In this document: piece by piece, positions 6,028-60,404 of the stretch
How the letters are laid out: each line of letters starts with the position of its first letter
How positions within the stretch are numbered: the stretch's first letter is position 1
Assembly: GCA_032622095.1 (NCBI GenBank)
Contig: CP136061.1
Location: 135,617,587-135,681,586 of the forward strand
From: Siphonodentalium dalli
Lineage: Eukaryota > Mollusca > Scaphopoda > Gadilida > Siphonodentaliidae
Direction of reading: 5' to 3'
DNA length: 64,000 nt
Notes under the pieces: model-generated
The model's database searches: none
What the model was told of the DNA's origin: nothing
Seen by the model: the letters and a program-made list of their open reading frames with translations, nothing else
Made by a program: the position numbers and the translations under genes

Positions 6028-6118
6028 TGTCAGAAGTGGGGTTCGAACCCACGCCCACATTCGTGGACCAGAACTCCCATAACCTCGAACGAGGAAGGCA
6101 GTACCTTGAATAGGCGCC
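6028..6118 (-). pseudogene. tRNA-Leu (CAA), 3' fragment split by LINE insertion
   Basis: The 3' part of the gene with its intron and anticodon, up to the target duplication GGCGCC (6113-6118). Next to the insertion the bases AGAC of the anticodon stem are replaced by TAT (plus strand ttgaataggcgcc instead of ttgagtctggcgcc). The 5' part of the same gene is at 8282-8310. Confidence 0.93.
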
Positions 6119-6991
6119 TTTTTTTTTTCTTTTTTTTTTATAAAATCGACTCAGTTCTGGTTTTCGAGCCCACGGGACCACAACCCAGAACTTGAGCCAG
6201 TCCTGGTGTATTACGCATTTCGTGGTCTACGGGTATACAAAACCGGTTCATCACGGTCGAAACGATGTAACTTTATTCAATTGAAAAACACAATAATTAT
6301 ACATTACAAAATTTCAAAATTACAAAAATTCATGGAAAATAGGAAGATAAAAACGAACTTAAAGCAAAGAGAAGGATACCTAGTAGAAGTGGAGCCATTA
6401 TAGAAAATAACACCACAAATAAGGTGATCATTGTAGCTAGAGAACAATGAAATAGGACAAGTCAGAGGAATAGAAAGAAAGAGCTGAATTCAAGAGAAGT
6501 GGAGATCAAGACACACAGGAGAGGAGCATCACAGAAAGATAATAATGTTGAAGGTAAGTATAATTCTGATGATTGCAATGAGCATGAGAACACTTAACAT
6601 TGGAGCGCGGTAAGTATTAGTGAACATAATTTTGGAAGATAACTGTTCAGTATGTTTAATATTGAAAACTAAAGAGGAAAAATAATATAATTCGGCAGTG
6701 ATGCTAATAATAGTATAGGTTATTTAAATTGTATAAAAAAAATAATAATAATAATAATAATTTAAATAAATAAATTCATAATAATATTAATAATGTATTT
6801 ATGGATAATATATATATATATATATATATTTAGACACTATCTTGCTCGAAAGTCGTTGGACAAAATGCTAAGTTCGATACCGTATTATACATATACTATG
6901 TATTCATGGTTGATGTTACAAATCTCTCTTTTGGATCGATTGTCATAGCAGGGTCATTAACATTATTACATCACAAATTCCAGTCCTATCA
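6119..6991 (-). other. 3' region of the ORF1-only LINE
   Basis: No gene is seen. The minus strand has an AATAAA at 6272-6277, a tRNA-Leu-like stretch (6150-6203) and the poly(A) end. It also holds a (TAA)n tract around 6737-6761 and a (TA)n tract around 6808-6828. No remnant of an ORF2 was recognised. Confidence 0.7.
6150..6203 (-). other. Degenerate tRNA-Leu-like, intron-less sequence near LINE 3' end
   Basis: On the minus strand this reads CTCAAGTTCTGG, an exact 12-nt match to the spliced anticodon arm of tRNA-Leu(CAA). After an 11-nt stretch in place of the variable arm comes GTGGGCTCGAAAACC, close to the T-arm GTGGGTTCGAACC. The acceptor end is poorly conserved. In the array genes the 12-mer is split by the 31-nt intron, so the source would have been spliced or intron-less. 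Similarity is by eye; chance is not excluded. Confidence 0.5.
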
Positions 6992-8131
6992 TTAACCATT
7001 TTGAATGTCATCTGGATCAATCATTTTCACTCCTGGTTGCCGTTCATACCAGTGAATATACAAAATTGCTCTCTTTTCCAATTTCTCTCCACGATACCCT
7101 ATATTTACAGCATCCAGATACAACGCATACAGTTTATTCATATCTTCATTGGAATGCCTTTTATCTAATGTCAATAAAGAACTCATTGGAATCTTTTGCG
7201 TTTCTGAGTCGTAATATGCACTAGACCTATAGCTTTTTGGAATAGTGTCCAAATGAGACCTGTCCACTCTAGCAGTGGACGGAGTCAAATAAAATTTGTC
7301 TCCAGCAGAAGAATCTTCACCAGCTTTCCCGGTCTGATCACCTACAACTGTCCCTATGTCATCTGATTTCTGATCCATATCTGTGGGTTTCTGTGGCAGA
7401 GGTACCACGGTGGGGTCCGTCTGGGTGGAGGCAGCCGCCGTAGTACATTCACCAGTCGTCTGAGAGGACGCGGTTACCATCGTAGTATCACGAGTCGTCT
7501 GGGAGGACGCGGTTAACATTATAGTATCGTCAGTCGTCTGTGTCGATTTGCATATAACACCACGGTTAGCTGACATCAGCCTAATAGGGCAAGTGTTAAT
7601 TTTATGCTGAGGCGACAGACAGCACACGCACACCTGTGCGCGCCCCTGCATGGTAATAATTGCCCGTCCTGTCCCATAGTCCAATGCGTAAGGCACTGTC
7701 TTTCCGTTATCCACTCGGATCACTAACTCACGCACGCCGTCATGAATTAGTACGCCTTCATACACTGTACCTAAATACCGATGTTCAATCACTGTCCCAA
7801 AATCCGCACATAACGAAGCCAATTCAGCTGCCGATATAAAGTAGGGCAATCGATGTACTTTTATAGTGCAGATAGCCGAACCCTCGTCGCAGAAGTAAAG
7901 CGAATAATCACCCGTGGAGAATGGCGATTGTCTAACAACACCCAATGCAGCGTCATGGTCCGCGAACACCACTGTCCACAAGCCCGGCTGGCTATCGCGA
8001 CACACAGCTGTAATCCCATTGAGATCAATACAATGGCTGATTAACTTTAACACAGATCCATGGTCACGTACGACCGTTCCACGTATCAATAATTTCACAC
8101 TTTTGGCCAGAATATCAGCACATAATTCCAT
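6992..8131 (-). CDS. LINE ORF1 (Gag-like, one CCHC zinc knuckle)
   Basis: 379 residues. Residues 1-165 form a region without a named motif that aligns by eye with ORF1 of the LINE at 46314-47612. Shared points are the pattern hxLPxaIs..El...DFG near residues 93-112 and the G.R...R....vPY.L.......R block at 132-165. A zinc knuckle C-X2-C-X4-H-X4-C lies at 168-181. It is followed by three to four copies of a 13-residue Ser/Thr repeat (SSQTTRDTTMVTA type, about 196-240, a 39-bp DNA repeat) and a hydrophilic tail. In known LINEs ORF1 binds the element RNA and forms the RNP. The frame is open and unbroken. The C-terminal 90 residues have no counterpart in the other ORF1. Confidence 0.85.
   Translation of the reverse strand: MELCADILAKSVKLLIRGTVVRDHGSVLKLISHCIDLNGITAVCRDSQPGLWTVVFADHDAALGVVRQSPFSTGDYSLYFCDEGSAICTIKVHRLPYFISAAELASLCADFGTVIEHRYLGTVYEGVLIHDGVRELVIRVDNGKTVPYALDYGTGRAIITMQGRAQVCVCCLSPQHKINTCPIRLMSANRGVICKSTQTTDDTIMLTASSQTTRDTTMVTASSQTTGECTTAAASTQTDPTVVPLPQKPTDMDQKSDDIGTVVGDQTGKAGEDSSAGDKFYLTPSTARVDRSHLDTIPKSYRSSAYYDSETQKIPMSSLLTLDKRHSNEDMNKLYALYLDAVNIGYRGEKLEKRAILYIHWYERQPGVKMIDPDDIQNG
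7416..7550 (-). repeat. 39-bp coding minisatellite inside ORF1
   Basis: GTCGTCTG recurs at 7455, 7494 and 7533, exactly 39 bp apart, encoding the 13-residue Ser/Thr repeat of the ORF1 protein. A more degenerate unit flanks each side. Confidence 0.85.
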
Positions 8132-8281
8132 TTCTTCTATTCATTAACATTCAGAATAAACTAACCAAATGTCACAACCACAATTTAGCAACGGATGCAC
8201 ATTAAATTCACACAATTAACGTAGATTACATCGGACACAAATAAACACGACCTCCGTCATCAACAGCCCAACCGGATCCCA

Positions 8282-8310
8282 GGCGCCTTAGACCACTCGG
8301 CCATCCTGAC
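8282..8310 (-). pseudogene. tRNA-Leu (CAA), 5' fragment
   Basis: First 29 nt of the tRNA-Leu gene split by the LINE derivative; ends with the second target-duplication copy GGCGCC. Confidence 0.93.
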
Positions 8311-8566
8311 TTATGAAATGAAGACCAAAACTGTTGCAGTCCCGCGCGCACGTCACGTGGTTACAGCTGAAGAGCAAGTTCTCTGTAATTTCGGCATACT
8401 AATTACTATTCACGTATTTTGTCAACAGATTTGCTGAAACGTCGCACAAACTTTTAGTGAACATGGATTCGGGTGACGTCACATGTAGTTTTTAGACCGA
8501 TTTTTTGTTATAAGAAATTTTCAAATGCACGTTTTACAGTTTATAAGAGCTTATTCCAACACCGAA

Positions 8567-8639
8567 GTTTCCGTAGTGTAGTGGTTATCACGCTCGCCTA
8601 ACACGCGAGAGGTCCTGAGTTCGAGCCTCAGCGGAAACA
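8567..8639 (+). tRNA. tRNA-Val (AAC)
   Basis: Block 2, first gene after the LINE insertion; as at 1099. Confidence 0.97.
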
Positions 8640-8869
8640 ACCGGAAAAGTTTTGCTGAGTTTTGCCTACAGACAAATAATGTTTCGTGTTGCCCGTGGCC
8701 AAAGTACTCACACTAAACTGAAACTTGATTGCCAAAATACATTTTTGTATGATTGAAAGCCCCTCAATTTACTGACCGTCGATCATTTTTGCTTGAGATG
8801 AAGAATAAAACACAAACACTTAAAATTGCGTTATTTGTCAAAAACAAAATTGATTCACCAACTAAAATT

Positions 8870-8942
8870 TGTTCCCGCTGGGGCTCGAACCCAGGACCTC
8901 TCGCGTGTGAAGCGAGCGTGATAACCACTACACTACGGAAAC
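8870..8942 (-). tRNA. tRNA-Val (CAC)
   Basis: Block 2 unit 1; as at 77. Confidence 0.97.
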
Positions 8943-9199
8943 TTCGCATACTGTCACAATTTTAAATGCGCTCGGGATGATTCGACTAGATCAAAACTTA
9001 CTTCGGTCTGAGAAAATGTTATGACGGTTAGATAGCTTCCTAATTCCCGCGCAGTACGGCCTGATCACGATGGACAAACTGAGGTTGCACAAATTAATGC
9101 CCCGGGCATAGCATCAATCAACATGAAGACAACATTTTGTTCAAAGTTATACCGGTACACTATAATATAGTACCCAAACTGTTAGGAAAATCCCCATGT

Positions 9200-9291
9200 G
9201 CCTCGGTAGCGCAGTAGGCAGCGCGTCAGTCTCATAATCACAAAATGACAGAGCAATCTGAAGGTCGTGAGTTCGATCCTCACTCGGGGCA
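9200..9291 (+). tRNA. tRNA-Met (CAT), 19-nt intron
   Basis: Block 2 unit 1; as at 1732. Confidence 0.96.
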
Positions 9292-9520
9292 GAAATCTTT
9301 TGCCTGTGATTTTTAATGTTACCCTTCGGAGCAGATCCATTTTGACAGCCAAGTTGAAAGAAAAAGAAAACCATCAAAATGTTCTTTTCTGTCTGGATTT
9401 TGGTTGGCAGAAACAGCAAACAAGCTATGTGAAATATCAAACTCATAGAGATGGTGCCAAGAACTTCACAGGTCAACTGTCGCTTCCATGTGAGCAAGCA
9501 AAATGCAAACAAAAAAGTAT

Positions 9521-9635
9521 TGTCAGAAGTGGGGTTCGAACCCACGCCCACATTCGTGGACCAGAACTCCCATAACCTCGAACGAGGAAGGCAGTACCTT
9601 GAGTCTGGCGCCTTAGACCACTCGGCCATCCTGAC
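9521..9635 (-). tRNA. tRNA-Leu (CAA), 31-nt intron
   Basis: Block 2 unit 1; as at 728. Confidence 0.97.
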
Positions 9636-9891
9636 TTATGAAATGAAGACCAAAACTGTTGCAGTCCCGCGCGCACGTCACGTGGTTACAGCTGAAGAGC
9701 AAGTTCTCTGTAATTTCGGCATACTAATTACTATTCACGTATTTTGTCAACAGATTTGCTGAAACGTCGCACAAACTTTTAGTGAACATGGATTCGGGTG
9801 ACGTCACATGTAGTTTTTAGACCGATTTTTTGTTATAAGAAATTTTCAAATGCACGTTTTACAGTTTATAAGAGCTTATTCCAACACCGAA

Positions 9892-9964
9892 GTTTCCGTA
9901 GTGTAGTGGTTATCACGCTCGCCTAACACGCGAGAGGTCCTGAGTTCGAGCCTCAGCGGAAACA
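9892..9964 (+). tRNA. tRNA-Val (AAC)
   Basis: Block 2 unit 1; as at 1099. Confidence 0.97.
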
Positions 9965-10194
9965 ACCGGAAAAGTTTTGCTGAGTTTTGCCTACAGACAA
10001 ATAATGTTTCGTGTTGCCCGTGGCCAAAGTACTCACACTAAACTGAAACTTGATTGCCAAAATACATTTTTGTATGATTGAAAGCCCCTCAATTTACTGA
10101 CCGTCGATCATTTTTGCTTGAGATGAAGAATAAAACACAAACACTTAAAATTGCGTTATTTGTCAAAAACAAAATTGATTCACCAACTAAAATT

Positions 10195-10267
10195 TGTTCC
10201 CGCTGGGGCTCGAACCCAGGACCTCTCGCGTGTGAAGCGAGCGTGATAACCACTACACTACGGAAAC
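10195..10267 (-). tRNA. tRNA-Val (CAC)
   Basis: Block 2 unit 2; as at 77. Confidence 0.97.
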
Positions 10268-10524
10268 TTCGCATACTGTCACAATTTTAAATGCGCTCGG
10301 GATGATTCGACTAGATCAAAACTTACTTCGGTCTGAGAAAATGTTATGACGGTTAGATAGCTTCCTAATTCCCGCGCAGTACGGCCTGATCACGATGGAC
10401 AAACTGAGGTTGCACAAATTAATGCCCCGGGCATAGCATCAATCAACATGAAGACAACATTTTGTTCAAAGTTATACCGGTACACTATAATATAGTACCC
10501 AAACTGTTAGGAAAATCCCCATGT

Positions 10525-10616
10525 GCCTCGGTAGCGCAGTAGGCAGCGCGTCAGTCTCATAATCACAAAATGACAGAGCAATCTGAAGGTCGTGAGTTCG
10601 ATCCTCACTCGGGGCA
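10525..10616 (+). tRNA. tRNA-Met (CAT), 19-nt intron
   Basis: Block 2 unit 2; as at 1732. Confidence 0.96.
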
Positions 10617-10845
10617 GAAATCTTTTGCCTGTGATTTTTAATGTTACCCTTCGGAGCAGATCCATTTTGACAGCCAAGTTGAAAGAAAAAGAAAACCATC
10701 AAAATGTTCTTTTCTGTCTGGATTTTGGTTGGCAGAAACAGCAAACAAGCTATGTGAAATATCAAACTCATAGAGATGGTGCCAAGAAGTTCACAGGTCA
10801 ACTGTCGCTTCCATGTGAGCAAGCAAAATGCAAACAAAAAAGTAT

Positions 10846-10960
10846 TGTCAGAAGTGGGGTTCGAACCCACGCCCACATTCGTGGACCAGAACTCCCATAA
10901 CCTCGAACGAGGAAGGCAGTACCTTGAGTCTGGCGCCTTAGACCACTCGGCCATCCTGAC
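10846..10960 (-). tRNA. tRNA-Leu (CAA), 31-nt intron
   Basis: Block 2 unit 2; as at 728. Confidence 0.97.
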
Positions 10961-11216
10961 TTATGAAATGAAGACCAAAACTGTTGCAGTCCCGCGCGCA
11001 CGTCACGTGGTTACAGCTGAAGAGCAAGTTCTCTGTAATTTCGGCATACTAATTAATATTCACGTATTTTGTCAACAGATTTGCTGAAACGTCGCACAAA
11101 CTTTTAGTGAACATGGATTCGGGTGACGTCACATGTAGTTTTTAGACCGATTTTTTGTTATAAGAAATTTTCAAATGCACGTTTTACAGTTTATAAGAGC
11201 TTATTCCAACACCGAA

Positions 11217-11289
11217 GTTTCCGTAGTGTAGTGGTTATCACGCTCGCCTAACACGCGAGAGGTCCTGAGTTCGAGCCTCAGCGGAAACA
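11217..11289 (+). tRNA. tRNA-Val (AAC)
   Basis: Block 2 unit 2; as at 1099. Confidence 0.97.
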
Positions 11290-11519
11290 ACCGGAAAAGT
11301 TTTGCTGAGTTTTGCCTACAGACAAATAATGTTTCGTGTTGCCCGTGGCCAAAGTACTCACACTAAACTGAAACTTGATTGCCAAAATACATTTTTGTAT
11401 GATTGAAAGCCCCTCAATTTACTGACCGTCGATCATTTTTGCTTGAGATGAAGAATAAAACACAAACACTTAAAATTGCGTTATTTGTCAAAAACAAAAT
11501 TGATTCACCAACTAAAATT

Positions 11520-11592
11520 TGTTCCCGCTGGGGCTCGAACCCAGGACCTCTCGCGTGTGAAGCGAGCGTGATAACCACTACACTACGGAAAC
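11520..11592 (-). tRNA. tRNA-Val (CAC)
   Basis: Block 2 unit 3; as at 77. Confidence 0.97.
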
Positions 11593-11849
11593 TTCGCATA
11601 CTGTCACAATTTTAAATGCGCTCGGGATGATTCGACTAGATCAAAACTTACTTCGGTCTGAGAAAATGTTATGACGGTTAGATAGCTTCCTAATTCCCGC
11701 GCAGTACGGCCTGATCACGATGGACAAACTGAGGTTGCACAAATTAATGCCCCGGGCATAGCATCAATCAACATGAAGACAACATTTTGTTCAAAGTTAT
11801 ACCGGTACACTATAATATAGTACCCAAACTGTTAGGAAAATCCCCATGT

Positions 11850-11941
11850 GCCTCGGTAGCGCAGTAGGCAGCGCGTCAGTCTCATAATCACAAAATGACA
11901 GAGCAATCTGAAGGTCGTGAGTTCGATCCTCACTCGGGGCA
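11850..11941 (+). tRNA. tRNA-Met (CAT), 19-nt intron
   Basis: Block 2 unit 3; as at 1732. Confidence 0.96.
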
Positions 11942-12170
11942 GAAATCTTTTGCCTGTGATTTTTAATGTTACCCTTCGGAGCAGATCCATTTTGACAGCC
12001 AAGTTGAAAGAAAAAGAAAACCATCAAAATGTTCTTTTCTGTCTGGATTTTGGTTGGCAGAAACAGCAAACAAGCTATGTGAAATATCAAACTCATAGAG
12101 ATGGTGCCAAGAAGTTCACAGGTCAACTGTCGCTTCCATGTGAGCAAGCAAAATGCAAACAAAAAAGTAT

Positions 12171-12285
12171 TGTCAGAAGTGGGGTTCGAACCCACGCCCA
12201 CATTCGTGGACCAGAACTCCCATAACCTCGAACGAGGAAGGCAGTACCTTGAGTCTGGCGCCTTAGACCACTCGGCCATCCTGAC
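12171..12285 (-). tRNA. tRNA-Leu (CAA), 31-nt intron
   Basis: Block 2 unit 3; as at 728. Confidence 0.97.
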
Positions 12286-12541
12286 TTATGAAATGAAGAC
12301 CAAAACTGTTGCAGTCCCGCGCGCACGTCACGTGGTTACAGCTGAAGAGCAAGTTCTCTGTAATTTCGGCATACTAATTACTATTCACGTATTTTGTCAA
12401 CAGATTTGCTGAAACGTCGCACAAACTTTTAGTGAACATGGATTCGGGTGACGTCACATGTAGTTTTTAGACCGATTTTTTGTTATAAGAAATTTTCAAA
12501 TGCACGTTTTACAGTTTATAAGAGCTTATTCCAACACCGAA

Positions 12542-17548: not shown

Positions 17549-17776
17549 TGTAGTGATCGCCGATATCCGGACATTGCCGAAGTATGAATCGGAGCACCGA
17601 TCGTGACGTCATGTTCTAGATTACCCGGATGAAGAAGGCTCTCTCGTCAGACCAAGAACGGAATCCTAGCAAACCAGCAGCCATGTTGACTTACTGTCTA
17701 TTGTATATCTATTGTGACCATGTTAGACCATATAAAGATGTGTAACCATAGTGAATAGTCCTTCGTTTTCACTATA
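17549..17776 (+). repeat. 5' LTR (228 bp)
   Basis: Identical by eye to 22678-22905. It contains a TGACGTCA palindrome at 17604-17611 and TATAAA at 17731-17736, possible promoter elements. Confidence 0.92.
17731..17736 (+). promoter_or_regulatory. Possible TATA box in 5' LTR
   Basis: TATAAA about 40 bp before the LTR end; the usual place for an LTR promoter. No transcript evidence. Confidence 0.4.
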
Positions 17777-18250
17777 ATGACGACGTTGTAGTGTCGAACC
17801 ACGCGGGGAGACGAAAATGTGTATTTTGATGTCATAACTTTTGTGAAAATGACTTTGTCAATTTGGTGTAATTTTCCGTTCCTGAAGACTATACTTTCAG
17901 AGTTCGGTCGTGTTTGAACCATGATAATGTTGCTGAATATATATATTTAATAATACAATTGATGATTTCTACTGTCCACATGTTTCAATGTGTAAAATTG
18001 ACATTTGCTCTGCCGTTTCTGCACAAAATTCCAATGTGCCGCTCTGTTCTAAAAATAGCATGTAAACACCGGGAAATACAGTTTCCGGGCAAGAACTTCT
18101 ACCGCCACAGCTATCCGGTTTCTGACGACAGGGGAGATTGGATTCGACAACTTCATTGCCCAGTTCCTCCAGATTCACGGTCAGATAAACTTTACTGTTC
18201 ATAATTTACGAGATAAATGTCAATGACAATGCAGCTCATTTTGCCATATG

Positions 18251-18790
18251 TTTATCAACAACCGATTGAACAACCAAATCAATCTACATTCTGCCAGTTT
18301 GATTTATGTGATTTTTTATCACATTGATTCCTGCCCAGGGTTTATTTATTAGCCAGGGAACACCCCTTCCTTCTAATACATAATGCCATGGGTAACAATT
18401 CACATTTTGATTAACTGGTACCTGAATATCACAGTACATGCATAATTCAACATCAAGAGAATACACAATAATATAGTTTACAGTTCACAGAACTCGGAAA
18501 GAATACAGATTTTCTAGTCAGCTTTATTCATCAACCAATCAACTGAGTTTTCAACCAAATCAATCAACAGTCTGCACAATTGATTCAGTTTCTGAGAATT
18601 TTGACCAATTGATTCCTGCCCACGGGTTATATATTAGCAAGGGAATACCCCTCCATTCTAATACATAGCGCCTAGGGTAAAAATCAGTACTAGTATACTT
18701 CAGCCTTCTAGAGAATATTCAGTACAGACGGTATATCCAAGACCACAGAACTCTGATACAGTACGCAGTGTTCTGGTCAGCTTTTCTAGT
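18251..18790 (+). repeat. Diverged tandem duplication, about 270 bp period
   Basis: Both copies run from a TTTAT..CAACC start through CAACCAAATCAATC, ATTGATTCCTGCCCA, TATTAGC and TTCTAATACATA to a CTAGTCAGCTT or CTGGTCAGCTT end. Many substitutions and small gaps separate them. Confidence 0.75.
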
Positions 18791-19020
18791 GGAAAAACAA
18801 AACACTTCAGAAGCTAATATGTTTTTGTATTTTTGCATTTATTTATATATTTTCATGCCATTGTGATCAGTTTCTCTATATGAGTATATTTACTTTTGAA
18901 TCAACTGATTTATTATATTTCTAATGTCACTGTGATCAGTTTCTCGGCATAAGTTGATTAACTTATGAGACCCTGATTTATTCTCCAATAACTGATACAC
19001 ATCTTTGATATATGCATATT

Positions 19021-19161
19021 TTTTCATTAATATTTTGTATGTGTTTCTTTTTGGTAAATGAATTAATTATTTGTGTGTATCAGATAAAGTATTTTCATTA
19101 ATATTTTGTATGTGTTTATTTTTGATAAATGAATTAATTATTTGTGGGTATCAGATAAAGT
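19021..19161 (+). repeat. 71-bp tandem duplication
   Basis: TTTTCATTAATATTTTGTAT starts at 19021 and again at 19092; the copies differ at only a few positions and end in CAGATAAAGT. Confidence 0.88.
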
Positions 19162-19613
19162 TATATTTGTTCATTCAATGGGGAATATTTCATGAGTATT
19201 TTGAGTAGGCATTTTTCGTATAGATATGATGTTGTTGTGAATGATTTTTGGAACCTAGGTTTAGGTTCAGTCATTCATACTGACATTGCTACTTATTATT
19301 GTTGTTAAATTGATCGCATAACTACTCAGATTGCTTTGTGCGATATTCATTTTTGATTGTGTATTTCTAGTTATATGTATCAAGATACATGTACCATATA
19401 TATAATTTGAATTCTTAGTGGTACCAGAAGGAATAGAACACTTGCCACTTTGAAACTGCTTGATTTATATATCAGGTATCAAATATATTGAGCGACAAAT
19501 CAGAATGAAAATGATATCTGTATGCCTGAGTTATTAGGTAAACGCGGGTTCATTTAATCATTCTTCACCAAATTTGACAAACTTTCTCAAGACATTAAGA
19601 TCAAGATCAAGAC

Positions 19614-21788
19614 ATGGCCAGCTTTGGATATATCAATTCATACAATTGTGCACCAACTTTGGTTCAATATGGATCGAGTGTGTATCAACCGTATGTTTAT
19701 CAACAACTGCCACCAATCCAGCCATATGTGCAAAATCAATGGCCAACAACCAATTATAACAATTACCCACCTGGTTTGCCATACCCAGTCCAACCAATGT
19801 ATCGACCGCCGCATGCTTCTCAACAACTGCCACCAATTCAGCCATATGTGCAAAATCAGGGGCCAACAACCAATTATAACCAACGCCCACCTGGTTTGCC
19901 ATACCCACCTGGTTTGCCATACCCAGTTCAACAGACCAAGGCTACACAAATACCCGATCCAACTGAGTCAAATCAACAGGCTGTTAGCTTTAAAATGCCG
20001 CAGCCAGAAGATCAGTCAAACCATGCTGAGACAACTCACGAACTGAGGACCGATCCTCCTGAGTCGGGCAAGCATTATGTCTGGAATAGGATTTCATCTC
20101 GGTTAGAGAAAGAGGCACACGAAATGACCCAGTGGATGGAAGGTCATAAGTTTGTGTTCCATCAAGGCGTGGATTTACTGAAGAAATTTCCGAAATACCA
20201 TCCTATATCTATCAAGGTCAGGTCCTATCTAGAGACGCTAATGAGAGAATTGGAATATAGGTTGGAAATGAGGACTGAAGAGAAGCACAAACGCGACGAT
20301 ATGATTCTCAACTGCTGTGCGTACAAGCCGGGGACGACGAAGAATGAGTGGGGAAATATCTCGTTCAGCGAGCTGATAAGCAAATTAATGCGATGGGAGT
20401 TGAGTAAAGACCAAGAAAGCGCAGCTCGGAAGAAATCTCATTCTCGACTACTCGAATTTGCCAGCCAGATTGGAAATTATATAGTTAATCGGAAGGATGA
20501 ATTGGTTCAATCGACGACTGCTATATACAATAAGGACGCTGATTTCTCAAAGAAAATGGGCCGAGTAAATGTGACTGACCTTTATCCCAATGACCGCATC
20601 CCGGTTAGGAAATCAACTGCTGCGCTCACAAGATGCGCCGGTTTTTCCACTGGATCCAGTCCAATGCTCGAACCAATCCCAGAAAATGAGTTATCAGAGA
20701 AGATGGCAGTCAAAATGGGCCGAGTAAATGTGACTGACCTTGATCCCAATGACCGCATCCCGGTTAGGAAATCAACTGCTGCGCTCACAAGATGCGCCGG
20801 TTTTTCCACTGGATCCAGTTCAATGCTCGAACCAATCCCAGAACAGGTGTTACCAGAGAGGATGGCAGTCAAAATGGTCGCCGAAGATCAGCTATCGGGA
20901 AAAGCCTCCATCCAAGACTCCAAGACTCAAGTGGTTGAAAAATTACCAGGGTTAAATGACTATGTCATGAGATTTGATGTTGAGGAAAATAACCGACCAC
21001 ATTCCATTGACCAGAAGCAGATTATATCACTGGGGGGAATAGTGGAGAAGGCGGATCGTCTTTCCAACTCTCTGAAGAACTTGCAGTCGGAAATAGACGA
21101 CATGCAACTAATAACACCAGAAGAGTATACCTTCTACACAAGAAATCCAATTCAGCATGATAAACCTGACGAGCCAGCTATCAACACACTTATGGACAAT
21201 GAACAAGACGAGGAGCCAGTCCATGATATCAGTCTCGAGTGGGACGACAGATTTTCCCTGGCATCTGCCATATCCCAATTGGAATATGGTAACTCATCAT
21301 TCAGTGGACTCTGCCCGTCATGTTCGTATTTTCCGGACAGCTCACTATCATCAGATGCTCAGCCAACCACGTGTTCATATGATACAGGCTACCAGTCTCC
21401 ATCAGAAGAGATCGTTAGCACTGATGGTAAAACTACCGGTATTCAACAGCACATAGATGTCCAGATCACCGACGACATACATGTATCCCAGGATGATACT
21501 GCGTCGGCGTCTGAGTCACCACACAGACAAGAAGCTCAAGATGCCGGAGCGGCGAAATCTGCAGACAAACCAGATACCGGTACTGCAACAGAAGCTGTAG
21601 CGAACATGAGCCAGACTGAGGACCGTTCAAATGAGTTGCAAACAGCCGAACCGAGGTGCACATGGTCTCAGACTGAATTAGAGGGCCCAGATCAGTGGCC
21701 ATGGGATCCGGGTGGAGATCAGTGGCCATGGGATCCTGGTGGGAATAATCATCCCTCAAATTCTGCAGTGGTATCCAATGCCTCATAG
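19614..21788 (+). CDS. Gag-position protein of the LTR element, family not recognised
   Basis: 724 residues. The start is chosen at an ATG in good context (A at -3, G at +4). Residues 1-110 are Pro/Tyr/Gln-rich with a 40-residue tandem repeat (QQLPPIQPYVQNQ... twice). Residues 155-310 are charged and probably helical, a candidate for a capsid-like core. Residues 314-366 and 367-419 are a near-perfect 53-residue duplication. The rest is acidic and Ser/Thr-rich, ending with DQWPWDPGG twice (693-710) and a short tail. No zinc knuckle, protease, RT or integrase motif is visible. The position between identical LTRs argues for Gag; a captured host gene is the alternative. Confidence 0.7.
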   Translation: MASFGYINSYNCAPTLVQYGSSVYQPYVYQQLPPIQPYVQNQWPTTNYNNYPPGLPYPVQPMYRPPHASQQLPPIQPYVQNQGPTTNYNQRPPGLPYPPGLPYPVQQTKATQIPDPTESNQQAVSFKMPQPEDQSNHAETTHELRTDPPESGKHYVWNRISSRLEKEAHEMTQWMEGHKFVFHQGVDLLKKFPKYHPISIKVRSYLETLMRELEYRLEMRTEEKHKRDDMILNCCAYKPGTTKNEWGNISFSELISKLMRWELSKDQESAARKKSHSRLLEFASQIGNYIVNRKDELVQSTTAIYNKDADFSKKMGRVNVTDLYPNDRIPVRKSTAALTRCAGFSTGSSPMLEPIPENELSEKMAVKMGRVNVTDLDPNDRIPVRKSTAALTRCAGFSTGSSSMLEPIPEQVLPERMAVKMVAEDQLSGKASIQDSKTQVVEKLPGLNDYVMRFDVEENNRPHSIDQKQIISLGGIVEKADRLSNSLKNLQSEIDDMQLITPEEYTFYTRNPIQHDKPDEPAINTLMDNEQDEEPVHDISLEWDDRFSLASAISQLEYGNSSFSGLCPSCSYFPDSSLSSDAQPTTCSYDTGYQSPSEEIVSTDGKTTGIQQHIDVQITDDIHVSQDDTASASESPHRQEAQDAGAAKSADKPDTGTATEAVANMSQTEDRSNELQTAEPRCTWSQTELEGPDQWPWDPGGDQWPWDPGGNNHPSNSAVVSNAS
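19701..19940 (+). repeat. 120-bp coding tandem repeat
   Basis: CAACAACTGCCACCAAT occurs at 19701 and 19821, 120 bp apart. The second copy also has CCACCTGGTTTGCCATACC doubled in tandem. Confidence 0.85.
20553..20870 (+). repeat. 159-bp coding tandem duplication
   Basis: AAAATGGGCCGAGTAAATG starts at 20553 and 20712; the copies are nearly identical and in frame (53 codons). A third start AAAATGG at 20871 then diverges. Confidence 0.93.
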
Positions 21789-22677
21789 AGGTTTGGAAAA
21801 TATGATAGTTGCCGTCAACTGAATCAACCCTGCCACTGCTATACAAGAGAATTCAACAACTACATGTATTAAAGAAAATGACACGATCACTGGATATGAT
21901 TATGGTTTAGATTTATAATATCATTAAGTCATACATGAACCATGCACATGTATCAGGTAGATCTAAGATAATGCTTAGGGCTTGTTTATATCCTAAACAA
22001 ATGCACTGGGTAGATCTTGTGATAATGCTCTGATGCTTCATGGTTCAGTCCAGAAAATGATGCTAGAACAGTGCATACAAGCATCAATACACAACCCGGT
22101 TAAGTTTGCACGTACGTTTTGACATTTGCTAGTTCATATATATTTAGCTTCAATAAAGCGTTGTGTTGATTTTCGATATGCGATATGTTGAGGTCGATAT
22201 GATATGAAACCCGGTGAAATGCATATATAAAACGTCGTGTAGCTTCAGGGAAATTTGTGCGAGTCATAAAGTGACATACCTCATTTATTACGAAATGGTC
22301 GACACCAGTCTCACCAACAGTTGCCAAGGTTAATGGGCGAATATCCAGACATGTGGGCGAATATGGAACTTACGGCACCAACAGCATGTGTTTCTGATCC
22401 GGATGTTTGCCATTGAGCCATTCATCAGCCATTGACTAATTAACAATACTGGACAGATCATACCATATACCAAGAGACCACACTGGTGAGACACGTTACC
22501 AAAGAGCACTTCTGACATGGCAGCTAGCGGGGTTATAGGCCGAATATCCATCTCATTGACCCAGGGATATGACGGTGTCTCATATCGGTATCCAGATTCA
22601 GGACCTGTGATCCTACACACCATCCACCCTGCGAGGTCCAACATACCCAGGGCTGTATTCTATAAAGCTTGGGGGAG
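21789..22677 (+). other. 3' untranslated region of the LTR element, ending in a purine tract
   Basis: 889 bp without a supported ORF. It ends in GGGGGAG directly before the 3' LTR, the likely plus-strand primer. Confidence 0.7.
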
Positions 22678-22905
22678 TGTAGTGATCGCCGATATCCGGA
22701 CATTGCCGAAGTATGAATCGGAGCACCGATCGTGACGTCATGTTCTAGATTACCCGGATGAAGAAGGCTCTCTCGTCAGACCAAGAACGGAATCCTAGCA
22801 AACCAGCAGCCATGTTGACTTACTGTCTATTGTATATCTATTGTGACCATGTTAGACCATATAAAGATGTGTAACCATAGTGAATAGTCCTTCGTTTTCA
22901 CTATA
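22678..22905 (+). repeat. 3' LTR (228 bp)
   Basis: No difference from the 5' LTR was seen, which indicates a recent insertion or recent gene conversion. Confidence 0.92.
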
Positions 22906-41139: not shown

Positions 41140-41239
41140 NNNNNNNNNNNNNNNNNNNNNNNNNNNNNNNNNNNNNNNNNNNNNNNNNNNNNNNNNNNNN
41201 NNNNNNNNNNNNNNNNNNNNNNNNNNNNNNNNNNNNNNN
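41140..41239. other. Assembly gap (100 N)
   Basis: Exactly 100 N, a conventional length for a gap of unknown size. It hides the junction between the array and the 3' side of the second LINE. Confidence 0.98.
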
Positions 41240-42450
41240 CGATCAAGTGACCACTCTGTTTATTATATTTCCCTATAGGCGTCTGTTTTACCAGTAATAA
41301 GAATAATACCGACTATATTCATGACTCATAAATTTCGATAGCTCCTATGAATACATAACTGACTGGTGACATAATTCACTAGTGAAATTATCATTTCTAA
41401 TTTATAGAGAAATCAAGATAAATCACACATACATGTAGGAATGTCATTTTTTTTCCTTTTCACCAAATCGCGTCCTGTTGATTAAAAAATACGATGGTAA
41501 ATCTATACAAAAACAATAAATTCTTAATCGGAACCTGATGTTGAGATTATGCTGACTGAATCAAGTTATTATATTCTTGAAGTTTAACATTCGGAAAAGA
41601 ACATAAAAATTATTTTTGCATGAATATAATTCCATCAAAGCCAACACAAATTTCTATATCTTGCATATATTACTGTTATACTGGAATATAGAACTAGAGA
41701 TTTTATAACACGATGAAAAGTGGGGGGGGGGTGATGAAAAAATAAATAAATAAATACAAAAATTGGTAGGGGGGGGGGGGGGGGGGAGGGGGGTAAAAAA
41801 AAAAAAAAAAAAAAACCCAGCGGTTTGTTTCCCATCTACTATGGGAGGTTTAATGTGCCTTAATGTAATTTCTTACTGGCAGAATGTTTAATTCTAATTT
41901 TGTTGTCTTATTTCGTTTCAGCTCAAGATTACTTCGTCTTTGGACCAGGAAGTTAATCATCACTGCGTATACACTGTTTGATTATTTCTTTTTTTGTGAA
42001 TGTGAAAAATGGATTGGGATCGGATATGTTTCTGGATTGTTCTTGGAAATTAAAATCCTGAATGGAATTGCTGACATCAGTTCTCTACATTACATCTTAT
42101 ATTGGAATTCTCGTCAACATGTTTCGGATATACCTTTGTCTTAAAACTACATATAGTGATTAAAGAATTCATACTCTATTTTCTGAACAGAGAGGACACC
42201 CAGGATCTAAATTCTAGAAGTACTATGCATTCCTCATGTGCTACTAAAATTTCCCTTATATTTATAACTAAATTAAAGTTGGATTCTGTAATATATTCTT
42301 AGATTTTTGCATTACCAACACTATTCAAATAAAATTCACCACTCAACACAGCATTTTATAATAATCTCAGTCACATTATTAGGAAGACTCTCTTCTTTTC
42401 ATAAACCAACATCAATTTTCATACATTGTTACAATTAACATGAATATTTA
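41240..42450. other. Non-coding stretch, possibly partly LINE 3' region
   Basis: AT-rich sequence between the gap and the LINE ORF2 stop. No array sequence, poly(A) end or target duplication was found, so the LINE 3' boundary is unresolved. It contains G runs at about 41721-41731 and 41769-41793 and an A run at about 41796-41815. An AATAAA on the minus strand (42447-42452) overlaps the ORF2 stop codon. Confidence 0.7.
41721..41815. repeat. Low-complexity poly(G)/poly(A) tracts
   Basis: Long G homopolymers followed by about 20 A. Such runs are error-prone in sequencing; lengths should not be trusted. Confidence 0.85.
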
Positions 42451-45400
42451 TTAAAAGCTGAAAAGAATCTTCCCATTTTTGTGGCTTAGAATATTATTGT
42501 TTTCCAAAACATGTTTTTCAAAATATTCCATTTTGTTTCGTGACTCACAGTAATTCTTCAAAATCTCAACATGGTTTCTCAAAACAGGTTTGAATAATCT
42601 GTCTGCTGGTAGTATCTTACCATCATAGAAAAATAAATTTCTGGATCTATATACTGCAATCCTATAAGCACTCAGAACAATATTAACAAATACATTATTA
42701 ACACCTATCAATTTTATATGTGAACCAAACATCAACATTTTTTCAAAATCTCCTTCTTTAACTGCCTCCTGTTTCACATGGAGCATATCAATAAAATATC
42801 GACATTCCGCGATAATTCTCTGAATTGAATAACAAGCAATAAATATATGTGGAATGTCTTCTACCTCAGTCAGGCAGAATGGACACTTATCCGTGTCAGA
42901 TTGACCTACCAAGTACTGCTTTCTCCTTGTAAATAAAATATTATGATAAATTTTCAAGTCTAGTTCAATCATTTCAGTTGATTTTGCAGAAAGATAGATT
43001 AATTTCCAATTCAATTTGAAATCCAGACCAAAATATTTCTGCCAAAAGGTCACACTTGTTGCTTCCTCAAAATGCTTATTAATGATTTGACAATATGCAA
43101 TCTTGGTAGTTAAATTTGACACTGGAGTTAATTGTCCATTCAAAACAAAGAATATACCACTTGAATTTTGACTGCTTGATCCATCTGAGAGTTTCTGGGC
43201 CCCATTGTCATTAATGCCTTCTATCCAGTTAGCAGGTAGGGCATTTTTGATGATGCTATATATAGCAGGTACAATTTTACAACTACAAAGTGAATCACCA
43301 CAAACTATTTCTTGGATTGCCTGCACTGGAAGGAAGCCGGGTACATATTCATAAATTATATCTTTTATGCAAACTATCCCAGTTTTAACAAAGGATTCAC
43401 AATACAAAACGTTTTTGTTATTAGTCACCATATGATTGTCAAACAGAGGCTGTTGTTTTACCTCTAAAGCGGAATTTATTAAAGTGACATGGTCACTGGC
43501 AATATATTTCCATGACCTCAACACATCTGCATAAAACTGTGGAATTTTTTTTAATTCTTTTTCCTGCAAGGTGCAAAATAAAGTACTTATGCCTAAATCC
43601 ATTTCATAGTACTTATTAAAATAGTGTATCATAAAGTATTTCCATGGGAATTTGCTCTGTTGCATCTTTCTAATCCACTTACACCGTAATGACATTTTTT
43701 TCAAAAAAATATCGGGCAATTTAAGTCCTCCTTTATCCAGTTCCCCAATGAGTGTTGTGTATTTGATCTTGTGTATCGTGTGATCCCATATGAAATTTAA
43801 TACTACAGATTTAAATTTTTGTTCATATAATTTTGGTAAATCAATTACATTGAGTAAATACCACAATGATGAAAAATATAAAGACTGTAAAACAGTTATT
43901 TTCCCTTTCAATGTTAATTTTCTCTGTCCCCAGGTATGTAAGATAAAGGAAATCTTTTGTATCTTTTGTGACCAATTTAACTCAATTGTATCTTTTTCAT
44001 TTGGCCCTAAATGCACCCCCAATATTTCAATGGTGCTTGAGGTCAGTTTTAATGGTAAATTAGGTTCTAATAATATGGAACCTAAAGGCATTATTTCAGA
44101 TTTATCGTAATTGATACGGCTACCTGTCCCTTTAGCAAAAGTTTCAAAATCATGCAGAGCTGATCTTACTGATCTATTGTCTCTTAAAATTAGTTTATTG
44201 TCATCTGCATGTTGGAAAATCTTAACATTATTGTCACATCCTGGAATGGGAATACCTTTGATGTCAACATTATTGTTTATCAACTGGGCTATCGGCTCAG
44301 AACAAATAATATACAAAAGTGGCGATAAAGGACAACCCTGCCTTACTGATGATTCGATTTTTATCCATGATGAAAGATGTCCATTAATTTTAACGCTGCT
44401 CCTTGAATTTCTATACAAAATCTTCACCCACGAAATGAAATTTTTTCCCATTCCTACTTTTTCTAGTATATTAAATAAATATTCATGATCTATTCTATCA
44501 AAAGCTTTATTTAAATCAATTTTCATCAAAACTGCATCCATGTTTTCTTCTTTGATATATTTTATGCTATCTTTAATACTCAGTACTGTCTCACTTAGAT
44601 CTCTCCCGGGTACTGAACAAGTTTGAAAATCTGAAATTATTTTTGATATTACATTTTTTAACCTGTTTGCTAAAATCTTGGCAATTATCTTACGGTCAAC
44701 CCCCAGCAATGATATGGGTCTCCAGTTGGAGAGTTGTTCCTTATCGCCATTTTTCTTGAACATCAAAGTGATTAACCCTTGTTCCATTGATGGTGACAAT
44801 CTCTGGTGATTAATTGACTCTTTCACTAATCTCAATAACAGTGGTTCAAATATATGATAAAATTTCTGATAAAAGGTAACAGTTAGGCCATCAAGACCGG
44901 GGGATTTACCCTTTGTCATAGAAAACAGTGCATCATGTATTTCCTCAGGACTTATATCAGTGTCACACAACTCCGTAGATTCAGCAGGTAATTGTCTGCT
45001 GATTGATTCTAATAAAATTTGTTGGCAATGCTGATCAGTTTCTTTCTTTGCGTACAATGAACTATAGAAAGAATGAGCAACTTTTAGCATGTCAAAAGTA
45101 TTTTCTGTTATTCTGCCTTCGTGGTCGCTCATTTTAGAAAAAATATTAGAATTTTGCCTATGTTTTTCAAGTCCTAGGAAATACTTGGTGCATCTGTCTT
45201 CTTCTAATGCATGCTTACACTTGCTACGTATGATCGCCCCCTGACATCTATATTTCTCAATTTCTTCTAACTGAAACTTTAAGTTATTAACTTTTTCTAC
45301 ATTTATGAATTTATCTGTTCTGCCGCATTCAATTGAGAGTTGCCTCTGTAACTGATACTCTTTTTCCTTTTGTTGTTTTGAAGCTTTTTGGGCAAATAAA

Positions 45401-46314
45401 ATTGAAGACTTTTTTAACTTATACTTTAAATTATCCCACCATACAAGGTATTCTCTATCATACAAAGGACACTGTTTTTCTTTTGAAATCAACTTAGTTA
45501 TTATTTCTAAAAAGTCTTGATTTTCTAAATGAAGAGAGTTAAAAATCCAAATTCCTGGTCCTCTCTCGACTTTGTATAAATTGAATTTTGCAATGACTAA
45601 AGAGTGATCACTGTAGCAAGTGTAATTCATAAAACTATAATTATTCAAACTGATGAGTGACTTCGAACAGAGAATATAATCTATTCTGCTTTGTTGTAAG
45701 TTATTGTTTACTACTCTAAGCCAACTGTATTGTTTCTTGCATGGGTTTCTATAACGCCATACATCTATCAGACTATTCGAAGTGATGAATCTCTGAAAAT
45801 CTTCTGTTGTGCCATCGGTGGCACCACTAAATCTATCAATCCGCTGAGTTACACTATTTAGATCTCCAAGAAAAATACATTCTGAACATGCCTTGCATTG
45901 TATGTCTAATTTCTTAAGAAATTCTTTTCTAATCTTATAATTATTTGGTGAATATATGCAGAATAGGGAAATATTCCTCCCTTCAAATTTAAAATCAATT
46001 GCTATGATTCTGCCTTCATTGTCTTTGTATTTTTGAGAACAAAATCTCTTAAAATCTGAACTTATCAAAAATGCTACTCCTCTGGAATTATCTTTGTAAT
46101 TAGAATAGAATATATCCCCTTTCCACAGATGTTTTATACTACCAACAAATTCATTATCCCACAAGGTTTCCTGGATTGCAATTATGCCGAACCTGCGTTC
46201 TTCGAACAAATTGAAAACATTCTTAATCTTATTCATATTGCGCAAACCATTTACGTTTAAAGAACACAGAGTCGCCATGACTACAGCCCAGGAAATTATT
46301 AGTTTGATATCCAT
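42451..46314 (-). CDS. LINE ORF2: APE endonuclease plus reverse transcriptase
   Basis: 1287 residues. The endonuclease domain (about 15-245) has N20 (SLNVNG), E49 (QET), Y121 (YSPN), D151/N153 (GDLN), D212 (RIDYI) and D236-H237 (SDHS), the full catalytic set. A linker follows, then the reverse transcriptase (about 465-780): GKSPGLDG, NWRPISLL, catalytic D600 in KIDLNKAFD, RQGCPLSP, and the DD pair at 704-705 in QHADD, where His replaces the usual Tyr/Phe. A C-terminal zinc knuckle CPFC-X8-H-X4-C starts at 1144. It would nick target DNA and copy the element RNA in the nucleus. Its ATG shares one base with the ORF1 stop; a second ATG at codon 13, just before the endonuclease, is an alternative start. 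Confidence 0.95.
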   Translation of the reverse strand: MDIKLIISWAVVMATLCSLNVNGLRNMNKIKNVFNLFEERRFGIIAIQETLWDNEFVGSIKHLWKGDIFYSNYKDNSRGVAFLISSDFKRFCSQKYKDNEGRIIAIDFKFEGRNISLFCIYSPNNYKIRKEFLKKLDIQCKACSECIFLGDLNSVTQRIDRFSGATDGTTEDFQRFITSNSLIDVWRYRNPCKKQYSWLRVVNNNLQQSRIDYILCSKSLISLNNYSFMNYTCYSDHSLVIAKFNLYKVERGPGIWIFNSLHLENQDFLEIITKLISKEKQCPLYDREYLVWWDNLKYKLKKSSILFAQKASKQQKEKEYQLQRQLSIECGRTDKFINVEKVNNLKFQLEEIEKYRCQGAIIRSKCKHALEEDRCTKYFLGLEKHRQNSNIFSKMSDHEGRITENTFDMLKVAHSFYSSLYAKKETDQHCQQILLESISRQLPAESTELCDTDISPEEIHDALFSMTKGKSPGLDGLTVTFYQKFYHIFEPLLLRLVKESINHQRLSPSMEQGLITLMFKKNGDKEQLSNWRPISLLGVDRKIIAKILANRLKNVISKIISDFQTCSVPGRDLSETVLSIKDSIKYIKEENMDAVLMKIDLNKAFDRIDHEYLFNILEKVGMGKNFISWVKILYRNSRSSVKINGHLSSWIKIESSVRQGCPLSPLLYIICSEPIAQLINNNVDIKGIPIPGCDNNVKIFQHADDNKLILRDNRSVRSALHDFETFAKGTGSRINYDKSEIMPLGSILLEPNLPLKLTSSTIEILGVHLGPNEKDTIELNWSQKIQKISFILHTWGQRKLTLKGKITVLQSLYFSSLWYLLNVIDLPKLYEQKFKSVVLNFIWDHTIHKIKYTTLIGELDKGGLKLPDIFLKKMSLRCKWIRKMQQSKFPWKYFMIHYFNKYYEMDLGISTLFCTLQEKELKKIPQFYADVLRSWKYIASDHVTLINSALEVKQQPLFDNHMVTNNKNVLYCESFVKTGIVCIKDIIYEYVPGFLPVQAIQEIVCGDSLCSCKIVPAIYSIIKNALPANWIEGINDNGAQKLSDGSSSQNSSGIFFVLNGQLTPVSNLTTKIAYCQIINKHFEEATSVTFWQKYFGLDFKLNWKLIYLSAKSTEMIELDLKIYHNILFTRRKQYLVGQSDTDKCPFCLTEVEDIPHIFIACYSIQRIIAECRYFIDMLHVKQEAVKEGDFEKMLMFGSHIKLIGVNNVFVNIVLSAYRIAVYRSRNLFFYDGKILPADRLFKPVLRNHVEILKNYCESRNKMEYFEKHVLENNNILSHKNGKILFSF

Positions 46315-46316
46315 TA
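46312..46316 (-). promoter_or_regulatory. TAATG stop-start junction between ORF1 and ORF2
   Basis: On the minus strand the ORF1 stop TAA and the ORF2 ATG share an A. In the silkworm LINE SART1 a UAAUG junction couples termination to reinitiation, so the same is likely here. Confidence 0.75.
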
Positions 46317-47612
46317 TGACAAATTTTCTGAAATTTTCTTCATTCGCGTCGAAGAATTATTAACATTAGGTATAACTTTTATTGTTCGCCGTCTCGGCAA
46401 CTTCTTTTCTTTGGTGGAACCATCATTAACTTCAGCTTTGTCCTCCATTTTCCTCTTATTCTTTCTACTTTTACATGTAGACCACTCCGATGAATGTTCC
46501 ATTCTTGTATCCGAATGTTCCTCATCTAAGTCCGACATAACATCCTCGAAATTTTCCTCACTGTCCTCATTTTCAGACATATCGCCTTCCTCATTCATAT
46601 TATCCTTTACTGTACTATTTTGATTTGTTTCTGTGCTCTCTTCATTGTTCTTACCATCGCTTGACATCAGCTCGGATTGAGCCGTGGAACTTTGATTAGC
46701 ATCAACTTTGTCAGATTTATTTTCAATGTTGGAAGTTTTCTCAGAATTTTCCTCCGCATCCCAATTTTCTTTCGAATGCTCAAATCCATCAGATTTATTA
46801 GTGTTAACTTCATTCACTGGGCCCCAATCTTCTGTTGTGGCCTTTTCCCAATCTTTTTTACTTTCATTTTCTTTTCCAACTTCACCAGATTCGACATTTT
46901 CACCCTCTTGAGATCTCATATCTTCAACAACAACTTCATCTTCTTCAACACATATACAATCGTACAAATGACATTGTTGGCATTTCCGCTTGACACACAT
47001 GCGAGATACATGACCGTAAGACTTACACCGAAAACATTTGGTCTTCGAGCAAGTTACATATCCATGTTCATCCGAACCACATTCCGAACAAACACGTACT
47101 TGGTTATCATGCAGAACTCTGAAGTATCTCATGCCCATTGCAGTAGAAAATTTAAGCGAATATGGAAGCGCTTTCACTTCCGGAGGAAATTCTACCCTCA
47201 TAAATCTTGTTCCATCGGCAACACTGGTCTTCGGATAACAGCGCCTTTTGATCGCTGAAACTAATTGAACACCAAAATCTAACTTGAGTTTTGCTTCAAT
47301 TTCCTCATCAGTAATGTAAGCAGGGAGATGAAGAATCGACACCACTACTTGCTTTGCGAATACTCTGTTTGCTGAAAACTTCTTATCGTTTACTGTTATG
47401 CCACCCGCCAAAATATCTGTAGCTTCTCTGTCGCATACCGTAATCTCAAAACTATCTGAACCGACTGGCACACATGCAAGAATTGCATCTGGCCCACAAA
47501 AACTGTTAGTAGCTTCAATCACATCTAATGCTTTTACATTTTTGTTGTCAAAAACAAACAGTCTGACTGTATGTTCTTTTTCATGACCACCCAGTGATTT
47601 ATCCTCACCCAT
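46314..47612 (-). CDS. LINE ORF1 with three zinc knuckles
   Basis: 432 residues. Residues 1-170 are a folded-looking region homologous by eye to the ORF1 at 6992-8131, with shared LPxxI, DFG and PY-S/A-L points. Zinc knuckles C-X2-C-X4-H-X4-C lie at 175-188 and 193-206; a third Cys cluster (CQQCHLYDCIC) is at 211-221. Residues 222-380 are strongly acidic with many Ser and Asn, and 380-432 are basic (KNKRKMED, PRRRTIK), a likely nucleic-acid-binding or nuclear-import tail. The expected role is binding and packaging the element RNA with ORF2 protein. It ends in TAA overlapping the ORF2 start. Confidence 0.92.
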   Translation of the reverse strand: MGEDKSLGGHEKEHTVRLFVFDNKNVKALDVIEATNSFCGPDAILACVPVGSDSFEITVCDREATDILAGGITVNDKKFSANRVFAKQVVVSILHLPAYITDEEIEAKLKLDFGVQLVSAIKRRCYPKTSVADGTRFMRVEFPPEVKALPYSLKFSTAMGMRYFRVLHDNQVRVCSECGSDEHGYVTCSKTKCFRCKSYGHVSRMCVKRKCQQCHLYDCICVEEDEVVVEDMRSQEGENVESGEVGKENESKKDWEKATTEDWGPVNEVNTNKSDGFEHSKENWDAEENSEKTSNIENKSDKVDANQSSTAQSELMSSDGKNNEESTETNQNSTVKDNMNEEGDMSENEDSEENFEDVMSDLDEEHSDTRMEHSSEWSTCKSRKNKRKMEDKAEVNDGSTKEKKLPRRRTIKVIPNVNNSSTRMKKISENLS

Positions 47613-47814
47613 TTTCGATGTATGGTGAGGAGAAAAACAGTTTCTTCCCCAAGACTTCTAATCAGGAAGTCCTGATATTTGGTCCTAAATGTTCACTTAC
47701 ATGATTAACGATCTCAGTACATATGAAATATTCAAAAACAATGCATCATCCGCCAGATTAAAGTGAATTAAAGCTGGAGAAAATTTCAGATCAGTTCAGC
47801 CATTAAATACCAAA
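47613..47814 (-). other. 5' UTR of the LINE
   Basis: About 200 bp between the tRNA-Leu junction and the ORF1 ATG. No promoter element was recognised; transcription could also read through from the tRNA gene or an upstream promoter. Confidence 0.65.
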
Positions 47815-47848
47815 AGTCTGGCGCCTTAGACCACTCGGCCATCCTGAC
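47815..47848 (-). pseudogene. tRNA-Leu (CAA), 5' fragment at LINE junction
   Basis: The first 34 nt of tRNA-Leu, through GGCGCCAGACT at the edge of the anticodon loop, abut the LINE 5' end. The rest of the gene would be beyond the LINE 3' end, in or near the gap. Confidence 0.93.
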
Positions 47849-58969: not shown

Positions 58970-58975
58970 AAAAAG

Positions 58976-60400: not shown

Positions 60401-60404
60401 AAAT

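Follow-up and report, generated by a model that had tools for sequence, protein, structure and literature searches.

Why do three retroelements of two classes interrupt the same tRNA gene, tRNA-Leu(CAA), in a single tandem array? The array lies in a 64,000-nucleotide stretch of the genome of the scaphopod mollusc Siphonodentalium dalli, hereafter the window (contig CP136061.1, or C1, positions 135617587-135681586). An initial annotation had interpreted the insertions, a long interspersed nuclear element (LINE), a LINE derivative and a long terminal repeat (LTR) element, as sharing a niche of about 20 bp within this gene. We followed the three elements through the genome (2.23 Gb in 9 contigs). 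The reading that we favour, with a probability of about 0.9, is that the LINE-type insertions represent an L1-type group of non-LTR retrotransposons, equipped with an APE endonuclease, that targets tRNA genes of any isotype specifically at the D-arm, and that the LTR element is a bystander.

The tandem tRNA array in the window is marked by 33 Val-AAC anchors. Its repeat unit, of 1325 bp and later 1324 bp, carries Val-CAC, an intron-bearing Met, an intron-bearing Leu-CAA and Val-AAC; the Met gene was labelled SeC in a bacterial-code run, and Leu-CAA was labelled Ser in an intron run and received its anticodon by eye. A genome-wide search for the tRNA family scored 63 of 112462 first-look candidates. 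The window holds 30 intact tRNA-Leu(CAA) genes (29 identical, one with a single change) and three split ones; of the elements that interrupt them, two are indeed of LINE type and the third is an LTR element. The features concerned are as follows, ORF standing for open reading frame.

6028..6118, minus strand: 3' portion of the tRNA-Leu gene split by the short element, starting at GGCGCC
6119..8281, minus strand: short LINE derivative with ORF1 only, in tRNA-Leu(CAA), its A-tail on the 6119 side
6992..8131, minus strand: ORF1 of the short LINE derivative, an open reading frame of 379 aa
8282..8310, minus strand: 5' portion of the tRNA-Leu gene split by the short element, containing box A, with GGCGCC duplicated
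17549..22905, plus strand: dispersed LTR element interrupting another tRNA-Leu gene, between GGCAGTAG and GTACC
17550..17776, plus strand: 5' LTR (match length 227; the actual edge is one base earlier)
22679..22905, plus strand: 3' LTR, identical to the 5' LTR
41140..41239, no strand: assembly gap of 100 N in the sequence, concealing the 3' junction of the LINE
41240..47814, minus strand: visible portion of the autonomous LINE, whose 3' end lies in or beyond the gap
42451..46314, minus strand: LINE ORF2, 1287 aa, with APE-type endonuclease and L1-like reverse transcriptase
46314..47612, minus strand: LINE ORF1, 432 aa, with a weak CCHC match below the Pfam cut-off
47815..47848, minus strand: 5' portion of the third interrupted tRNA-Leu gene, ending GGCGCCAGACT

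The gap has a broken Met gene on its left side and the LINE on its right; array units are mostly 1325 bp ahead of it and 1324 bp past it.

Both LINE-type elements read in the tRNA-Leu sense, as had been annotated, and both occupy one site, with the A-tail after the D-loop A and the 5' side ending one duplication further. The A-tail of the short element adjoins GGCGCC, and its 3' flank reads GGCGCCTAT where intact Leu genes have GGCGCCAGAC; the target duplication therefore reads as just 9 bp. At the larger LINE, the junction proposed earlier holds for the 5' end, which adjoins GGCGCCAGACT at 47814/47815, whereas the left edge is concealed by the gap, together with the remainder of that Leu gene. 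The LTR element sits about 16 bp away at an unrelated position. A single ORF of the larger LINE combines an L1-like reverse transcriptase with an APE endonuclease: ORF2 matches RVT_1 (1.1e-34) and Exo_endo_phos (8.1e-15) in Pfam, and among solved structures human L1 ORF2p is its best match (1.5e-73), R2 reaching 1.5e-15. The ORF1 of the short element resembles that of the LINE (27% over 100 aa, E 3e-06 in a single comparison), and a Pfam search of its 379 residues found no family.

How general is this site? We queried the genome with a 33-mer from the 3' end of the short element, including no flank and allowing up to two mismatches, which gave at least 40 matches (17 forward, 23 reverse) against none for a reversed-pattern control. 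An earlier query carrying 119 bases of Leu flank was biased towards Leu and is left out of the counts. The 3' flanks of all 40 listed matches, the window copy among them, were read, and in 38 a tRNA gene follows in the sense of the element, although that of L082 contains merely part of one (loci are numbered with the prefix L). These genes represent 13 isoacceptors for Leu, Arg, Asn, Tyr, Thr, Glu, Lys and Ala, on 7 of the 9 contigs: Leu-CAA (3 copies), Leu-TAA (4), Leu-TAG (3), Arg-ACG (3), Arg-TCG (2), Arg-TCT (1), Asn (5), Tyr (4), Thr (2), Glu-TTC (1), Glu-CTC (7), Lys (2) and Ala (1). The Ala, Arg-TCT and Lys genes were identified by eye, and for three Leu copies the script's label, Leu-AAG, was changed to Leu-TAG in line with the anticodon. 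Integration of LINEs within transcribed tRNA sequence is thus site-specific and recurrent across the genome; tRNA-Leu(CAA) is not the niche it had seemed, and further isoacceptors appear in the LINE 5' flanks described below.

In 34 of the 40 the A-tail joins directly after the conserved D-loop A, at about nucleotide 21/22 and beside box A. A script mapped 22 of these junctions (L009, L011-L017, L019, L023, L024, L078, L080-L082, L085, L089, L091, L092, L095-L097); the other 12 (the window copy, L010, L018, L022, L075, L076, L083, L086, L087, L088, L090 and L098) were mapped by eye where the script met a local mismatch or had no close gene in its library. L011 and L012 are included, as the gene in which each lies reads GGTTATCGCG. 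On contig C6, four Tyr copies join 5 nt upstream of this junction and are probably one amplified insertion.

Removing an element together with one target duplication, joining the flanks and running ARAGORN on the join restored a single tRNA gene at 10 of 11 empty sites (the window copy, L009, L011, L013, L015, L016, L017, L020 and, twice, L021). The duplications at these ten joins measure 14 bp in Arg-ACG, 15 in Asn, 13 in Arg-TCG, 9 in the window Leu gene, 11, 11 and 37 in Leu-TAA, and 12 in each of three Tyr joins; at the eleventh, L012, no duplication was found beside a head. In addition, GGCGCCAGACTC stands on both sides of the Leu-CAA copies L024, L025 and L027, and a poly(A) tail occurs together with a target-site duplication in both the short derivative and L027. 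At L023 the 151 bases that follow the 3' junction, covering most of the Leu gene, recur exactly in the 5' flank, 14 nt short of the head, which may be a very long duplication or a product of recombination. The same test found 83 repeated bases at L014, at a distance of 135 nt from its head, and just 5 at L022, so that a long duplication was not demonstrated at these two loci.

A genome search with ORF2, in which the best 36 of 25820 candidates were scored (38 matches), returned a few sequences 93-100% identical, a group at about 60% and another at about 44%, many with open frames; judged by coordinates, many share regions with tRNA arrays. Most LINE heads seen are close to CTTCCGGTT. Among 25 LINE 5' flanks examined, 11 lie within tRNA genes near the expected place (the window, L027, L031, L039, L040, L041, L043, L093, L094, L099 and L100), the relatives falling in genes for Ser (L031), Leu (L039, L094, L100), Met (L041), Glu (L043, L093) and His (L099) and in a Lys-like gene (L040). 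Both ends of L027 are within a Leu-CAA gene. The 3' ends resembling the 60% group are found within Leu-CAA (L027, L023, L028), Arg-ACG (L071) and Asn (L070) genes; an A-run was sought at the 3' ends of the 44% subfamily (L072-L074) and of one 60% copy (L069), and none was present in these four.

These junctions suggest the following scheme. The ORF2 endonuclease would nick the antisense strand directly 3' of box A, at the T/A step that faces the D-loop A. The junctions show that the poly(A) tail joins the gene at this place, which fits what is expected of target-primed reverse transcription and gives inserts in the tRNA sense. The second strand is cut usually 9-15 nt further on, yielding the observed target-site duplications, with 37 bp seen once. 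The interrupted gene keeps its start, box A and about the first 27-35 nt upstream of the element, box B being left on the far side. Derivatives with ORF1 only, such as that at 6119-8281, are presumably mobilised by relatives with ORF1 and ORF2. Copies would shift between isotypes, at least one lineage being probably transcribed from the start of the host tRNA gene.

Several observations weigh against this account. We infer both the nicking and the transcription start from sequence, and the window LINE shows a single visible junction. Two of the 40 listed 3' ends depart from the rule: L077 has no tRNA in the flank read, and L084, in an apparent Glu array, retains GGATT alone before a deletion. 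Val genes have a similar D-arm and are targeted in none of the 38, and the specificity is therefore incompletely described. Copies in amplified arrays are moreover not independent, and a safe lower bound is about one event per isoacceptor. Among the 25 LINE 5' flanks 12 are within a tRNA gene, and that count includes L048, whose flank lies (by eye) far 3' in an Ile-like gene. Five others adjoin a short interspersed nuclear element (SINE; L035, L038, L042, L046 and L047), L030 and L044 are about 30 bp and 74 bp beyond an intact tRNA gene, L036 falls in an Asn array and has no clean junction, L034 has a truncated 5' end and stands in non-tRNA sequence, L037 has no head seen, and L032, L045 and L101 are unexplained.

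The LTR element behaves differently. Its two LTRs, of 227 bp each, show no differences, and the window copy is therefore probably young. Its 724-aa ORF (window 19614-21788) has no Pfam match, and with no Pfam-recognised pol in the ORF searched, the element looks non-autonomous. When the best 40 of 87 candidates for the LTR query were scored, they were spread over many places. Besides the two matches of the window itself we examined 18 loci (L051-L068), which group by flank into 11-12 insertions whose outer flank is visible (two ends of a single one may be represented by L051 and L052); L068 shows no such flank. Whole-gene tRNA searches found none in the 1.5 kb flanks of L051-L056 or the 150 bp flanks of L057-L068, a search that interrupted genes would escape. 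Empty-site joins of the six two-sided insertions outside the window gave a tRNA gene in none, and the outer flanks of the 11-12 insertions, compared with a library of 97 distinct tRNA genes, gave no match outside the window, although in one-sided cases a tRNA type missing from the library could escape detection. The window's own insertion, used as a control, scored positive in each of the two tests. The duplications are unrelated 4-mers (GACC, GTGC, GTAT, GCAC, TCAA), inexact at C3:60.5 and in the window (GTAG against GTAC). Finally, the tRNA-Leu gene takes up 115 of the 1325 bp of the array unit, so that a single insertion would land in it with p of about 0.09, which removes the claimed excess beyond chance for this element. 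It looks like an ordinary dispersed element that reached tRNA-Leu by chance, and we reject a tRNA-targeted LTR element of the Ty1/Ty3 kind, with none of the 11-12 outside insertions at known tRNA genes. The initial annotation had named copies at random sites across the genome as evidence against its proposal; this is what the LTR element displays, and the LINEs do not, so that the proposal stands for the LINEs.

Could other processes have produced the same pattern? A tRNA-Leu(CAA) niche common to a LINE and an LTR element is suggested by the three insertions that the window holds within some 20 bp, but the occurrence of the LINE derivative in 13 isoacceptors and the empty-site and outer-flank results for the LTR element, with their positive control, make it very improbable. 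We hold it just as improbable that elements insert anywhere and merely survive in redundant tRNA arrays. Most targeted genes whose surroundings were examined do sit among many tRNA genes, L011 and L022 being near just one or two; yet retention alone fails to explain one nucleotide position in 34 of the 40 listed copies and one orientation in 38 of 38, the spacer, which forms most of each unit, should then receive most retained insertions, and the LTR element is dispersed. The least probable alternative is a single insertion multiplied by gene conversion and array amplification. Some copies do look amplified, such as the four Tyr copies on C6 and the repeated Glu copies on C3, but copies that sit at one and the same nucleotide yet differ in isotype, duplication, subfamily and 5' end are incompatible with one event. 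Retention and amplification are both rejected as whole explanations.

A more serious competitor, though still an unlikely one, is that targeting proceeds by tethering to the RNA polymerase III machinery (TFIIIC or TFIIIB) and not by the reading of DNA by the endonuclease. The pan-isotype choice of genes, with box A as their common neighbour, speaks for it, as does the case of TRE5-A, which is described as requiring a functional B box and for which an in vitro interaction between the ORF1 protein and TBP is reported (PMC5391098). The same source reports, however, that TRE5-A insertions scatter over 23-181 bp, with 80% within 47 +/- 3 bp (PMC5391098), whereas the 3' junctions here fall almost at a single position, which, with the lack of Val insertions, suggests direct reading without being decisive. 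Targeting of the D-arm by a site-specific L1-type group accounts for 34 of the 40 listed 3' junctions at one nucleotide, 38 of the 40 in tRNA genes and, for ORF2-bearing copies, 11 of 25 5' flanks nearby.

Exact insertion of a non-LTR retrotransposon inside a multicopy RNA gene is likewise found in R1, R2 and Utopia, each of which uses one rRNA or U2 snRNA site, R2 and Utopia with a restriction-like endonuclease. Dewa, Mutsu and Keno form part of the Tx1 clade and have in common with the LINEs described here an L1-like reverse transcriptase, an APE endonuclease and targets in multicopy small-RNA genes. The Tx1 group is described as L1-like with an APE endonuclease (PMC4640811). Dewa is reported for the zebrafish tRNA-Leu spacer (PMC3706591); its target is thus a spacer, whereas here the junction lies inside the gene, at the D-arm and across isotypes. 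The dictyostelid elements TRE5, TRE3, NLTR-A and NLTR-B are also L1-group non-LTR elements aimed at tRNA genes. Their insertions are described as lying upstream of the mature tRNA sequence by 2-64 bp or downstream of it by 40-150 bp (PMC5911963), and accounts of dictyostelid tRNA-targeted non-LTR elements agree in placing them outside that sequence (PMC5911963, PMC5391098, PMC5006619), in contrast with the LINEs here, which are inside tRNA genes. Dada DNA transposons do have their insertion sites within tRNA genes, either at nt 8-13 (box A) or in the anticodon region (PMC8869645), but they are reported to use a DDE transposase, with 6-7 bp duplications and each family tied to particular tRNAs (PMC3706591); here we find a reverse transcriptase and an endonuclease, poly(A), duplications of 9-37 bp (mostly 9-15) and one family in many tRNAs. 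One paper names tRNA genes among the known targets of non-LTR elements, the element being unspecified in that passage (PMC4640811), and a study of gastropod non-LTR elements includes Tx1 sequences, the word 'tRNA' being absent from its main text (PMC11203168). We found no report of a LINE inside animal tRNA genes among the open-licence papers listed by our searches, Repbase and subscription journals being outside this scope.

Target-specific LINEs serve as models for how an endonuclease and a reverse transcriptase find a site, and they attract interest as tools for gene insertion. A single site common to many tRNA genes, beside box A, would be a new solution with a conserved multicopy target. 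The group also offers natural tests that would set DNA reading against tethering to RNA polymerase III factors and show whether the start of a tRNA gene can serve a LINE as its promoter.

On this last point the heads of some copies are informative. Copies seem to move between isotypes, because some bear the 5' part of another tRNA gene. A copy in an Arg/Cys/Leu-TAA array on C9 (L009, about 9476-9520) opens with 9 nt of leader sequence and then nt 1-27 of Leu-CAA, which belongs to the C1 array. At up to two mismatches this chimeric head has three matches, the one on C9 and two on C3 (C3:126057601 and C3:126063592), none being listed on C1; the C3 heads share the strand of two Glu-CTC 3' ends (L082, L083) that follow about 2 kb downstream, and they are linked to these by position alone. 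L025 (C1:135483400-135493200), a copy in Leu-CAA, starts with about 23 nt of Thr tRNA-gene sequence. The simplest source of such heads would be an RNA beginning at the start of a tRNA gene.

The SINE that adjoins LINE heads, singly or in tandem, is a 429-bp tRNA-derived element with a T-run at its end, found in this position at L018 (3002-3861), L009, L010, L035, L038, L042, L046 and L047. At L018 one duplication of 13-15 bp encloses a SINE-SINE-element series in a Leu-TAG gene. The SINE head has 19 matches with at most one mismatch, some of them unread; judged by coordinates, none is more than about 0.2 Mb from one of the LINE or tRNA loci given here. The SINE-LINE joins could have arisen if the LINE reverse transcriptase jumped between templates. 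We tentatively suggest, at rather less than even odds, a pan-tRNA guild in which D-loop-cutting LINEs would adopt the host tRNA start and box A as promoter, carry tRNA 5' ends between isotypes, capture the 429-bp SINE by template jumping and sometimes rebuild the tRNA gene via a long duplication, at little cost to the host.

The array itself terminates within a Met gene, and the window beyond it, from about 57750 to 64000, is rich in GATATCA-like motifs.

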